From Poseidonibacter parvus (GTDB lineage: Bacteria > Campylobacterota > Campylobacteria > Campylobacterales > Arcobacteraceae), in contig NZ_CP019070.1 in assembly GCF_001956695.1 (NCBI RefSeq), positions 682,001 through 746,000 on the forward strand: a stretch of 64,000 bases of DNA, in the 5' to 3' direction. The notes beneath the pieces were generated by a model. It worked only from the letters and a program-made list of their open reading frames with translations, did not search any database and was not told the DNA's origin. Below, in pieces: positions 38,145-42,086 of the stretch (positions are counted from its first letter, which is position 1; each line of letters opens with the position of its first letter). The translations under genes and the position numbers were made by a program.

Positions 38145-38942
38145 ATGTTAGAAATATTAGAATACGATTTTATTCAAAATGCATTATTAGCTGGTTTATT
38201 AATTTCTATAGCAGCTGGAATAATTGGTTCACTTGTTGTTGTAAACAAAATCACTTTTTTAACAGGTGGAATTGCACATAGCTCTTATGGTGGAATTGGG
38301 ATTGCAATTTATCTAGGTTTACCTGTGTTATTTGGTGCAACTGTTTTTGCTTTAATTACTGCTGTTATAATTGCGATATTGACTTTAAACAATAGAAATA
38401 GAGCAGATGCAATTATAGGAATGATGTGGGCTTTTGGTATGGCTATTGGTATTATTTTTGTAGATTTAACACCTGGTTATAATGTGGATTTGATGTCCTA
38501 TTTATTTGGTTCAATAATCGCAGTTTCAAGCGATGATATCATTTATATGACAGTTTTAGATGTATTTATTGTTCTTATTGTAATGTTTTTTTATAAAGAA
38601 ATATTAGCTGTATCTTATGATAGTGAGTTTGCAAAATTAAGAGGAATTAATACAAAATTCTTTTATACACTAATTTTAGTATTAGCTTCATTATGTGTTG
38701 TTGCAGCTATTAAAGCTGTTGGGCTTATTTTAGTGATTGCTTTACTTACTATTCCTACCTATTTAGCAGAAGCATTTTCAAATAAACTATCTCAAATGAT
38801 GATAATAAGTTCAATTTTTGCAAGTATTTTTACACTTAGTGGTTTAGTGATTTCATATCTTTATGATATATCCTCAGGTGCAAGTATTATCATCTCAGCT
38901 GTAGTAATACTTACACTTGTAAAACTTATAAAAAGAAAATAA
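38145..38942 (+). CDS. znuB: Metal ABC transporter permease (ZnuB-like)
   Basis: A 265-residue permease with about eight membrane helices, of the ZnuB/MntB/TroC class, including the FLTGGIAHSSYGGIG segment near residue 39 and GLILVIALLTIPTYLAE near 187. It forms the channel for zinc (or manganese) import with ZnuC. The gene ends in a strong hairpin that overlaps its last codons. Confidence 0.85.
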   Translation: MLEILEYDFIQNALLAGLLISIAAGIIGSLVVVNKITFLTGGIAHSSYGGIGIAIYLGLPVLFGATVFALITAVIIAILTLNNRNRADAIIGMMWAFGMAIGIIFVDLTPGYNVDLMSYLFGSIIAVSSDDIIYMTVLDVFIVLIVMFFYKEILAVSYDSEFAKLRGINTKFFYTLILVLASLCVVAAIKAVGLILVIALLTIPTYLAEAFSNKLSQMMIISSIFASIFTLSGLVISYLYDISSGASIIISAVVILTLVKLIKRK

Positions 38943-38967
38943 GTAGCTTTAATAGCTACTTATTTTC
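38935..38967. terminator. Bidirectional terminator between znuB and the protease-propeller gene
   Basis: GAAAATAAGTAGCT and its complement make a perfect 14-bp stem with a 5-nt loop. One arm overlaps the znuB stop; the other ends 7 bp from the stop of the convergent gene. T- and A-rich flanks suit termination from both sides. Confidence 0.8.
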
Positions 38968-38973
38968 TACTAA

Positions 38974-41046
38974 CTAATTTTTCTTTGGCATCTTTTCTAA
39001 AGTAATTTCTCTTTGTATTTTTTTATCTCCAACAGTTTTTGCAAACCATTTATAAACTCTTGCAGACCATTTATTTTTTGAATTACCCTCTGTTATATAA
39101 ATACTTTGTAAATGCCAACCTGGTTTTGATTTACTATTATCATGTCTAATCATAACTTTTTTAATTTCGCCAAAATATTTATCTACAGGAATATTTTGAA
39201 TTGTACGAGAACCTCTTTCAAAATCATCACTTATTGTATCAATATGATACTCGGGACTTTCCCAATTATCACCTTTTAAAGTAATAAATACTTTTGCACT
39301 TGTACCTGCATTTTTTTCATTACTTGTATTTATTTCAATATTGTAATACTTTAACTCTTTGCTAGGTACTAAATCATTTTCAAAAGCTCCATTATTTTTC
39401 ATATTAATAACTCTTACTCTACCACTGTATTTATCTAATAAGAATAGTTTTAATTTTGTATTTCTTGCTTTAAAGTATTGAATATTACTCCATTGTTCCA
39501 TTGGTACTAATCCCATAACAAATTTGTTTCTAAAATAATTGTCATCAATTAGTTTTCCAATTTTTGCATCATTTTTAAGGTTGTTGATTTTATGAATATG
39601 CATAATTCCATTTCTACTTACACCTTTACTTATAATTAAGTAAGATTTTTTCTCAGAAGCTTTAAATATATTCATTCTAACCCATCCTGTAGACCAATCT
39701 TGCGTATCTATCTGTTCAAAATTAAATTTTTTATTTTTTAAGTAAAATTTACATTGAGAATATATTGTTCTTTTACCTGTATTATTAATTCCATAAATAT
39801 AAACAGCATTTTCAGTTTCAATTACTTGAATATCTGTACCTACAATAGATTTAGAATTCTTTAAAAAATTTGCTTCTTCAATTACTTTCTCTCCAAGTGT
39901 TCCATTGCTATTCATAACTCTAATATGTACTGTCCCATCATCTCTGTTTAAGATTACATAAGTTTTATTTTTAAAATAAAAAAACTCTATTTTATTCCAA
40001 CCCGAACGCCAGTCATGTTTTTCTATGACTTTATCAATTGTTCCATTATCATTAACTTTGTTTATATGAACAAGTCCATTTGTATAACCATCACCTTTTC
40101 CTGCTTTCATTAAAAAAAGATAAGTTTTCCCTTTAACTGTATAGAAATTTATATTACTCCAACCCTTAGTCCAATCATATGTTTGTATGTTTCTTCCAAT
40201 ACTTCCATCTGCTTTTATATTATGAATATGAACAAGTCCATTACTTGGTTTTAATAAAAATAAGTATTGTTTACCTTTTACTTCATATATCTTACTATTC
40301 CAACCTTTTGACCACTTATCAGCATATAAAACAGAATCACTTTTTAAACTAATTACTGTTCCTGAAACATAACTTGATGCATATTGTCTTCCCCAAAAAC
40401 TACTCCATCCTAATATTTTTAAATCAATAAATTTAGCGTAACAATCTTCTCCTGAAGTTAAGTCTAAATACCAAACACATGTCTTTTCAACATCAATATC
40501 ACCATTAGTTTTATATTTACAATCCATTCCTACAATTGTTACCCAATGATTACCTTTACTAATTAGTGCAACTACAGGAATAGCTCTTCTTAAGTGATGT
40601 CTAACTTTTTGTATAATAGAACTATTTGTGCCTTTATTATGTCTTATAGTGTCGTTTTCAATATCTTTTCTAGAAGTTAAATTTTTTTTAGTAAGTTTAT
40701 CAAGCCCCACTGCTAATTGTGCAGGAGTTGTAAAATAATCATCTCCTGGATTAAAAATTATACCTCCTAAAAGAAGTTTGTTTGCATACTTTCTAAAATC
40801 ACTTGGTCCTGATGTAACTTTGACATATTTTTTAATTCTACTTCTTGGTATTGCATTAACAAAATAACCCATAAAACTATGTGCAGCATCAATTCCACAT
40901 CCTACATATGAGCCTGCTTTTGCATTTACTGAATAAGGTGCGCCATTTACGTAAAGTCTTAGTCTTTCATAGTTGTTTTCTTCATCGTTTGTAATTTTGA
41001 CTTGTCTTGTTTTGTTATATTTTAGGGCATAGAATTCTGTTGACAT
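38974..41046 (-). CDS. Papain/C39-like peptidase domain, WxxGW propeller-like repeats and PLAT domain protein
   Basis: A 690-residue protein I cannot assign to a known family as a whole. Residues 1-230 look like a papain-fold (C39-like) domain, with candidate catalytic C50 (YVGCGIDAAH), H167 (GNHWVTIVGMD) and D195 (WYLDLTSG). Residues about 240-560 hold five or six repeats of about 50 residues with W-x-x-G-W near the start and G-x-V-H-I near the middle (KWSKGWN 245, DWTKGWS 291, DWRSGWN 346, DWSTGWV 450), like a beta-propeller. Residues about 566-685 resemble a PLAT/LH2 lipid- or protein-binding domain (AKVFITLKGDN, PGWHLQSIYI). No signal peptide is seen. Single gene with its own terminator; an effector or toxin role is speculation. 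Confidence 0.75.
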   Translation of the reverse strand: MSTEFYALKYNKTRQVKITNDEENNYERLRLYVNGAPYSVNAKAGSYVGCGIDAAHSFMGYFVNAIPRSRIKKYVKVTSGPSDFRKYANKLLLGGIIFNPGDDYFTTPAQLAVGLDKLTKKNLTSRKDIENDTIRHNKGTNSSIIQKVRHHLRRAIPVVALISKGNHWVTIVGMDCKYKTNGDIDVEKTCVWYLDLTSGEDCYAKFIDLKILGWSSFWGRQYASSYVSGTVISLKSDSVLYADKWSKGWNSKIYEVKGKQYLFLLKPSNGLVHIHNIKADGSIGRNIQTYDWTKGWSNINFYTVKGKTYLFLMKAGKGDGYTNGLVHINKVNDNGTIDKVIEKHDWRSGWNKIEFFYFKNKTYVILNRDDGTVHIRVMNSNGTLGEKVIEEANFLKNSKSIVGTDIQVIETENAVYIYGINNTGKRTIYSQCKFYLKNKKFNFEQIDTQDWSTGWVRMNIFKASEKKSYLIISKGVSRNGIMHIHKINNLKNDAKIGKLIDDNYFRNKFVMGLVPMEQWSNIQYFKARNTKLKLFLLDKYSGRVRVINMKNNGAFENDLVPSKELKYYNIEINTSNEKNAGTSAKVFITLKGDNWESPEYHIDTISDDFERGSRTIQNIPVDKYFGEIKKVMIRHDNSKSKPGWHLQSIYITEGNSKNKWSARVYKWFAKTVGDKKIQREITLEKMPKKN

Positions 41047-41087
41047 GATATTTCCTTATGATTTGGACTGTTGTTTAAAACACCTAT

Positions 41088-41119
41088 AGTATAAGCTAAA
41101 CTAATAGTTTAGCTATACT
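41088..41119. promoter_or_regulatory. Strong hairpin or operator upstream of the protease-propeller gene
   Basis: AGTATAAGCTAAACT and AGTTTAGCTATACT pair over 14 bp with one bulged A and a 3-nt loop. It sits 42 bp before the start of the minus-strand gene and 119 bp before the plus-strand cvfB-like gene. It may be a regulator site in this divergent promoter region or a leader hairpin. No T-run follows, so it is unlikely to be a terminator. Confidence 0.45.
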
Positions 41120-41199
41120 GTTTCCTTATTCTAATTTTACTCTTATATATCTTAATATGTTATATAATTATTAAATAGCTTAAGAAAGTTTTATTTAGC

Positions 41200-41205
41200 T
41201 ATAAT
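41200..41205 (+). promoter_or_regulatory. Probable -10 element of the cvfB-like gene
   Basis: TATAAT 33 bp before the cvfB-like start, giving a transcription start near 41212 and a short leader. No clear -35. Confidence 0.45.
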
Positions 41206-41237
41206 GGACAAAATTAAACAAAACGGAATTACTAAAA

Positions 41238-42086
41238 ATGACAGAAAATCAAGAACAGTTAATAAATGAACATATATATGTTGGTGAAATAAATAAACTA
41301 GCAGTATATAGAAAAAGCGAACCGGGAATTTACTTAATTAGTGAAGACAAAGAAGAAGTACTTCTTCCAAATGCTTATGTAACAAATGAAATGGAACTAG
41401 GTTCTTTTTTAGATGTATTTATCTATACAGATAGTGAAGATAGATTAGTTGCAACTACACTTGACCCATACCTATATGTAAATGAATTTGCATATTTAGA
41501 AATTGTAGATACTGCTGCTTTTGGAGCTTTTGTTGATATAGGGCTACCAAAAGATATTCTAGTTCCTAAAAATAAACAAAGAAGTATTTTTCATAAAGGT
41601 CATAAAAAAGTTTTAAAAATGATTCTTGATGAAAAAACTGATAGACTTATTGCTACAGAAAAATATACTTTAGAGCAAAATATAAAAGACTTAAGTGAAA
41701 AAGATGAGGTGGAAATCCTTGTTTATTCAAAAACTCCACTTGGATATAAAGTAATTGTAAATGACTTATACGATGGAATGATTTTCCATACTGAAATATT
41801 TGAAAATATTTATTTTGGTGATAGAAAAAGAGCTTATATTAAAAAAATAAGAGATGATAATAAATTAGATATTTCACTTCAAGAAATTGGTAAAAAAGTA
41901 AAAGACGATAAAGTTTTTGAGATTTTAAAGAAAAATGGTGGAAAACTTGATTTTACTTATAAAAGTGATGCAGAAGATATCAAAAAAGTTTTTGGTATTA
42001 GTAAAAAAGCTTTTAAAGCAACGCTTACAAAACTGTTAAATGAAGAGAAAATTGTCCTAGAAAGTAATTGTATTAGAGTTAAATAG
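41238..42086 (+). CDS. S1-domain RNA-binding protein, CvfB-like
   Basis: A 282-residue protein with tandem S1-type beta-barrels, the clearest being FAYLEIVDTAAFGAFVDIG (about residues 84-102), and a C-terminal winged-helix region (about 225-280; FGISKKAFKATLTKLLNE). This is the architecture of Staphylococcus CvfB, an RNA-binding regulator. It probably binds RNA; targets unknown. Monocistronic. Confidence 0.83.
   Translation: MTENQEQLINEHIYVGEINKLAVYRKSEPGIYLISEDKEEVLLPNAYVTNEMELGSFLDVFIYTDSEDRLVATTLDPYLYVNEFAYLEIVDTAAFGAFVDIGLPKDILVPKNKQRSIFHKGHKKVLKMILDEKTDRLIATEKYTLEQNIKDLSEKDEVEILVYSKTPLGYKVIVNDLYDGMIFHTEIFENIYFGDRKRAYIKKIRDDNKLDISLQEIGKKVKDDKVFEILKKNGGKLDFTYKSDAEDIKKVFGISKKAFKATLTKLLNEEKIVLESNCIRVK

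Follow-up and report, generated by a model that had tools for sequence, protein, structure and literature searches.

A modular Poseidonibacter protein with tandem repeats, a PLAT domain and a putative papain-fold front domain, encoded in a variable chromosomal slot

The window considered here, i.e. the whole stretch of 64,000 nucleotides that was analysed (positions 682,001 to 746,000 of contig NZ_CP019070.1 of Poseidonibacter parvus), belongs to a host genome (G000) that is a single contig of 2.87 Mb. On the reverse strand of this window, from an ATG start at position 41046 to a stop at 38974, lies a single open reading frame for a protein of 690 amino acids, with a GC content (0.275) equal to that of the window. 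The gene lies tail to tail with a znuB-like ABC permease gene, with which it has a terminator-like hairpin in common (Table 1); upstream, a divergent cvfB-like S1-domain gene comes first and a thiol peroxidase gene next. The neighbours are housekeeping genes (znuC/znuB-like ABC genes, cvfB-like S1 protein, thiol peroxidase; all named by inspection), and among the ORFs of the window neither an immunity gene nor a secretion gene adjoins the 690-residue ORF. The initial annotation, made from the sequence alone, had described a gene standing by itself between terminators amid housekeeping genes; the stand-alone position holds, as do the coordinates and, upon translation of the ORF, the positions it gave for C50, H167, and D195. 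The predicted protein has a pI of 9.63, among the highest in the window, where the products of similar pI are mostly membrane proteins (judged by inspection). It contains no hydrophobic signal or membrane segment (the highest 19-residue hydropathy mean is 1.18), which bears out the earlier remark that a signal peptide is lacking. Its basic character is seen in every domain, the propeller-like part and the PLAT domain both being strongly basic, and recurs in the orthologue described below.

A survey of 104 Arcobacteraceae and 397 Campylobacterota genomes found the gene in three, all of them Poseidonibacter, with two copies looking intact and one decayed; no full-length relative was found among phages, plasmids, and viral contigs. 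In Poseidonibacter ostreae the same site between znuB and cvfB carries an orthologue with 77% identity, recovered in two parts (residues 1-89 and 89-686) that lie at contig ends and that we left unjoined. The decayed copy, at the same site in G007 (L003 1120-1890), has a stop and large deletions, and its pieces match residues 294-312, 466-493, and 541-690. We compared the znuB-cvfB interval (38942-41238 of the window; loci L017, L018, L019, L020, L022, L023, and L024) across the genus: it holds the 690-residue gene in two genomes, its remnant in one, and other genes in two, while in five (G002, G003, G004, G008, and G009) it is nearly empty, znuB and cvfB being direct neighbours. The other occupants are, in G001, a gene for a 149-residue membrane protein (L022 978-1427) with no family over cut-off and, after znuB in G006, an unrelated gene (L019 275-1324) with the zinc-finger-like start CTHPNCNKKAIKSHTISRA, an in-frame stop, and no significant Pfam family, which has the appearance of an accessory or defence-type gene in decay; in G006, cvfB lies outside the stretch examined. 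Since empty, other-gene, intact, and decayed states all occur between znuB and cvfB, this is a slot with changing content. A second znuB paralogue, about 60% identical, occurs in G005, G003, and G009 (L025, L026).

The znuB and cvfB trees are alike in clustering the window genome with G007 and G002 and in placing G005 elsewhere, so that the pattern of the gene requires multiple losses or else repeated arrival. Between P. ostreae and the window genome, dS is 0.72 for the gene (residues 89 onward) and 0.92 and 0.76 for its flanks, and dN/dS is 0.20 for the gene and 0.09 and 0.07 for the flanks. Judged from these substitution rates, the gene is under purifying selection, weaker than that on its flanks, and appears to have been resident about as long as its neighbours and to be old in the genus. 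Because the gene matches its flanking genes in GC content and synonymous divergence, any acquisition is old; recent horizontal transfer finds no support in a GC of 0.275, the same as in the window, or in a dS so close to the 0.76-0.92 of the flanks. Of the earlier suggestion of an acquired gene there remains an accessory gene in a variable slot, sporadic and often lost, but not a recent arrival.

Table 1. Positions of the gene, its predicted parts, and associated features (window coordinates unless a genome contig is named)
Feature	Coordinates	Strand	Basis
Whole gene	38974..41046	-	690 aa, pI 9.6; ORF and 77% identical orthologue at the same site, dN/dS 0.20
N-terminal domain, residues 1-235, putative papain-fold enzyme (C50, H167, D195)	40342..41046	-	motifs by inspection; residues conserved
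Repeat 1, residues 237-287	40186..40338	-	pairwise self-comparison and repeat profile
Repeat 2, residues 288-341	40024..40185	-	pairwise self-comparison and repeat profile
Repeat 3, residues 342-389	39880..40023	-	pairwise self-comparison and repeat profile
Segment 4, residues 390-447	39706..39879	-	repeat-length, no detectable similarity to the repeats
Repeat 5, residues 448-500	39547..39705	-	pairwise self-comparison and repeat profile
Repeat 6, about residues 515-558, weaker copy	39373..39504	-	repeat profile and pairwise scores
PLAT/LH2 domain, residues 568-670	39037..39345	-	PF01477, E=3.2e-16; PDB PLAT of 5-lipoxygenase and polycystin-1, E 2e-4 to 8e-4
Terminator-like hairpin between znuB and the convergent 690-aa gene	38934..38968	.	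15-pair stem, then T-run; counterpart visible at the G007 pseudogene locus
HlyD-type adaptors	G000:C1 475188, 2039293, 2097050, 2672489		NCBIfam over cut-off

The PLAT-like C-terminal domain of the initial annotation is borne out by the Pfam profile (PF01477), which scores 60.5 bits where the cut-off is 23, and on this profile match the C-terminal 103 residues are with certainty assigned to the PLAT family. With phmmer the PDB yielded the PLAT regions of 5-lipoxygenase, allene oxide synthase-lipoxygenase, and polycystin-1. No second PLAT domain was found in the host genome. Matches to the PLAT region in two other genomes (G021 and G382) lie inside N-6 DNA methylase-like proteins and were set aside as chance, and the one Streptomyces clavuligerus plasmid match inspected is a short stand-alone PLAT protein rather than a relative.

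Ahead of the PLAT domain runs a tandem array of repeats. The segments 237-287, 288-341, 342-389, and 448-500 align among themselves at scores of 60 to 112, against shuffle means of about 23, and none of 500 shuffles reaches these scores. The sixth, weaker copy (about 514-558) scores 33 to 49 pairwise against shuffle means of 22-23 and is recovered by the repeat profile at E=2.7e-18, a value to be read with the fact that the model itself includes this copy. The array therefore comprises five similar copies of 45-55 amino acids and one unlike segment of the same length, i.e. within the range of four to eight tandem repeats of 40-60 residues. The strict WxxGW motif occurs four times (at 245, 292, 346, and 451), not in every copy, and the Trp residues of all four occurrences are conserved in the orthologue. 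Of the "five or six propeller-like repeats" with WxxGW proposed earlier, five copies stand out above shuffles, four of them with the strict WxxGW, and segment 390-447 is unlike the rest. The repeat is not named by Pfam, NCBIfam, or the other family libraries searched, and WxxGW is not known to mark Kelch, WD40, EPTP, or Asp-box repeats. Searched against the 397 Campylobacterota genomes, the repeat profile found its own five copies and no convincing copy elsewhere; against sialidase A it gave a weak match (E=0.008).

An AF2 model of the full-length protein from its single sequence reached a pLDDT of 39, too poor to use, and was set aside; it is strand-rich with pLDDT below 60. Many of the top Foldseek matches of this low-confidence model in the PDB are propellers (LGI1 EPTP, GH32, GH43, sialidases), and about 125 of its columns match lipoxygenase chains bearing PLAT. 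The middle part of some 320 residues, with its tandem strand-rich repeats of about 50 residues, is likely to be a six-bladed beta-propeller; this fold is favoured rather than proven, because the matches of a low-confidence model are weak evidence. The propeller of the initial annotation is accordingly plausible from the repeats and the propeller matches, but a model with pLDDT below 60 leaves the fold itself unproven.

The N-terminal 235 residues had been read as a C39/papain-like peptidase. C50 lies within SYVGCGIDAAHSF, H167 within GNHWVTIVGM, and D195 within VWYLDLTSG, an ordered Cys-His-Asp set that is kept in the sole orthologue, a weak indication at 77% identity. The five histidines of the domain are all kept there as well, and three of five cysteines (C190, C202, and C432) are lost while C50 is kept; conservation in the windows around C50, H167, and D195 is not above that of random triples (p=0.36). 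At the place of the oxyanion Gln, about six residues before C50, stands A44, the nearest preceding amide residue being N41. Neither Pfam, NCBIfam, nor the PDB gave a match to residues 1-235 at E up to 10, and in Pfam and NCBIfam this includes Peptidase_C39_2 (PF13529) and papain-like profiles (E<=10). Compared with Campylobacterota C39_2 proteins, the domain shows no profile-profile similarity in hhalign (probability below 1%), and in unfiltered HMMER it scores at the level of shuffled sequences. The N-terminal profile also matched weakly in 10 genomes (E 0.008-0.08); these matches are short, fall in differing parts of the domain, in part contain stops, and were dismissed as chance. With a single orthologue at 77% identity to work from, the tests applied to this domain have little power either way.

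Structure prediction for residues 1-237 with the one orthologue (two sequences) gave a pLDDT of 34, and this model too was put aside as too poor to use; its best Foldseek match had an E of 0.4, and no papain-like protein was among the matches listed, so that the fold search lends the peptidase reading no support. In both low-confidence models the His stands at the start of a strand and the Asp at the end of the next, which fits the papain/C39 topology; the Cys stands at the start of a helix in only one of the two. The peptidase proposal thus keeps its three residues, present and conserved, but has gained nothing from family libraries, PDB, profiles, or predicted structure. On the motifs, we consider the chances that residues 1-235 form a cysteine peptidase to be about evenly balanced.

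For export the host genome offers four type I secretion adaptors of the HlyD type that exceed the NCBIfam cut-off, none of them near the gene. The type VI sheath protein VipB (PF05943) is absent from this single-contig genome, the control being matched in E. coli, and the idea of a type VI effector was rejected for this host. No secretion signal is known for the protein.

Our preferred reading, held tentatively and with somewhat less than an even chance, is that of an accessory modular surface-targeting protein, exported or released on lysis, with a possible papain-fold hydrolase at its front. The repeats would fold into a six-bladed beta-propeller; the basic propeller and PLAT domain would dock the protein onto an extracellular surface of anionic lipid or glycan; and the N-terminal domain, which may be a cysteine hydrolase of papain fold (C50/H167/D195), would act on a surface protein, peptide, or amide. 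As the type VI sheath gene is missing, export without a signal peptide might proceed through one of the type I systems of the genome, by lysis, or in vesicles.

It is also conceivable, if rather unlikely, that the N-terminal domain is unrelated or enzymatically dead and that the protein serves purely as an adhesin or lectin, binding lipids or glycans through its repeats and PLAT domain. The lack of any enzyme family match, the C39 comparison at shuffle level, and the motif surroundings that are not specially conserved all agree with such a protein; on the other hand C50-G-x-x-A-A, G-N-H-W-V-x-I-V-G, and then D follow each other in the right order, and C50 was retained where three other cysteines were lost in the orthologue. 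A slot of changing single-gene cargo, with different genes or none in sister genomes and with this gene present, decayed, or absent among close relatives, would also suit an anti-competitor protein, bacteriocin-like or released on lysis, that attaches to the envelopes of other bacteria and cleaves a peptide or amide bond there; with no adjoining immunity gene and no type VI sheath gene in the host genome, we regard this as improbable. Least probable among these alternatives, and indeed hardly to be expected, is a cytoplasmic stand-alone defence gene acting on internal membranes or incoming phage material. The missing signal peptide and the variable slot, another occupant of which has a zinc-finger-like start, speak for it, but no PADLOC or PHROG match is worth the name, and lectin-like propellers and PLAT domains occur mostly in extracellular or membrane-facing proteins.

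The accessory surface-targeting protein that we prefer could, in a stronger and doubtful version, be an undescribed type of targeted bacterial hydrolase, residues 1-235 representing a new family of papain-fold cysteine hydrolases too distant for current profiles to detect, which a PLAT domain and a WxxGW propeller belonging to no named class would direct to membranes or glycans. We found no described family with the full architecture, and nothing relevant to it in the literature; beyond the Campylobacterota the searches covered phages, plasmids, viral contigs, the PDB, family libraries, and a wider genome scan with two peptide patterns (YDW[TS]KGW and W[NK]KIEFF), and with only these two patterns scanned little is shown about distant phyla. 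The arrangement that was unfamiliar to the initial annotation has not turned up as a described one, but the searches outside the Campylobacterota were weak. Should the front domain truly be a cysteine hydrolase, the protein would offer, in a genus reported in shellfish microbiomes, a compact case of catalysis directed to a surface through a propeller and a PLAT domain, and names could begin to be given to an enzyme family and a propeller repeat that both lack one; as an adhesin only, it would be a modest addition to the accessory surface proteins.

Among known systems, the C39 and C39_2 papain-fold peptidases resemble the N-terminal domain in the succession in which the Cys, His, and Asp motifs occur and in their local appearance, whereas the domain has no similarity to them above shuffles and no Gln at the usual oxyanion place. 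With beta-propellers (GH32 and GH43 enzymes, sialidases, LGI1 EPTP) the protein shares tandem strand-rich repeats of 45-55 amino acids, but its repeats have no family assignment, and the confidence of the model is too low for a claim on the fold. Known PLAT-domain proteins bear lipoxygenase, phospholipase, or channel parts. The C-terminal 103 residues agree, well over the cut-off, with the PLAT/LH2 family (PF01477; lipoxygenases, polycystin-1, the C-domain of Clostridium perfringens alpha-toxin), whereas none of the known PLAT proteins found here has the N-terminal part or the repeats of the 690-residue protein. A precedent for the layout as such is C. perfringens alpha-toxin, in which, as outlined in PMC4690130, a C-terminal membrane-binding domain adjoins a catalytic N-domain; the docking proposed here for the repeats and PLAT domain may be likened to the way in which that C-domain serves its catalytic partner.
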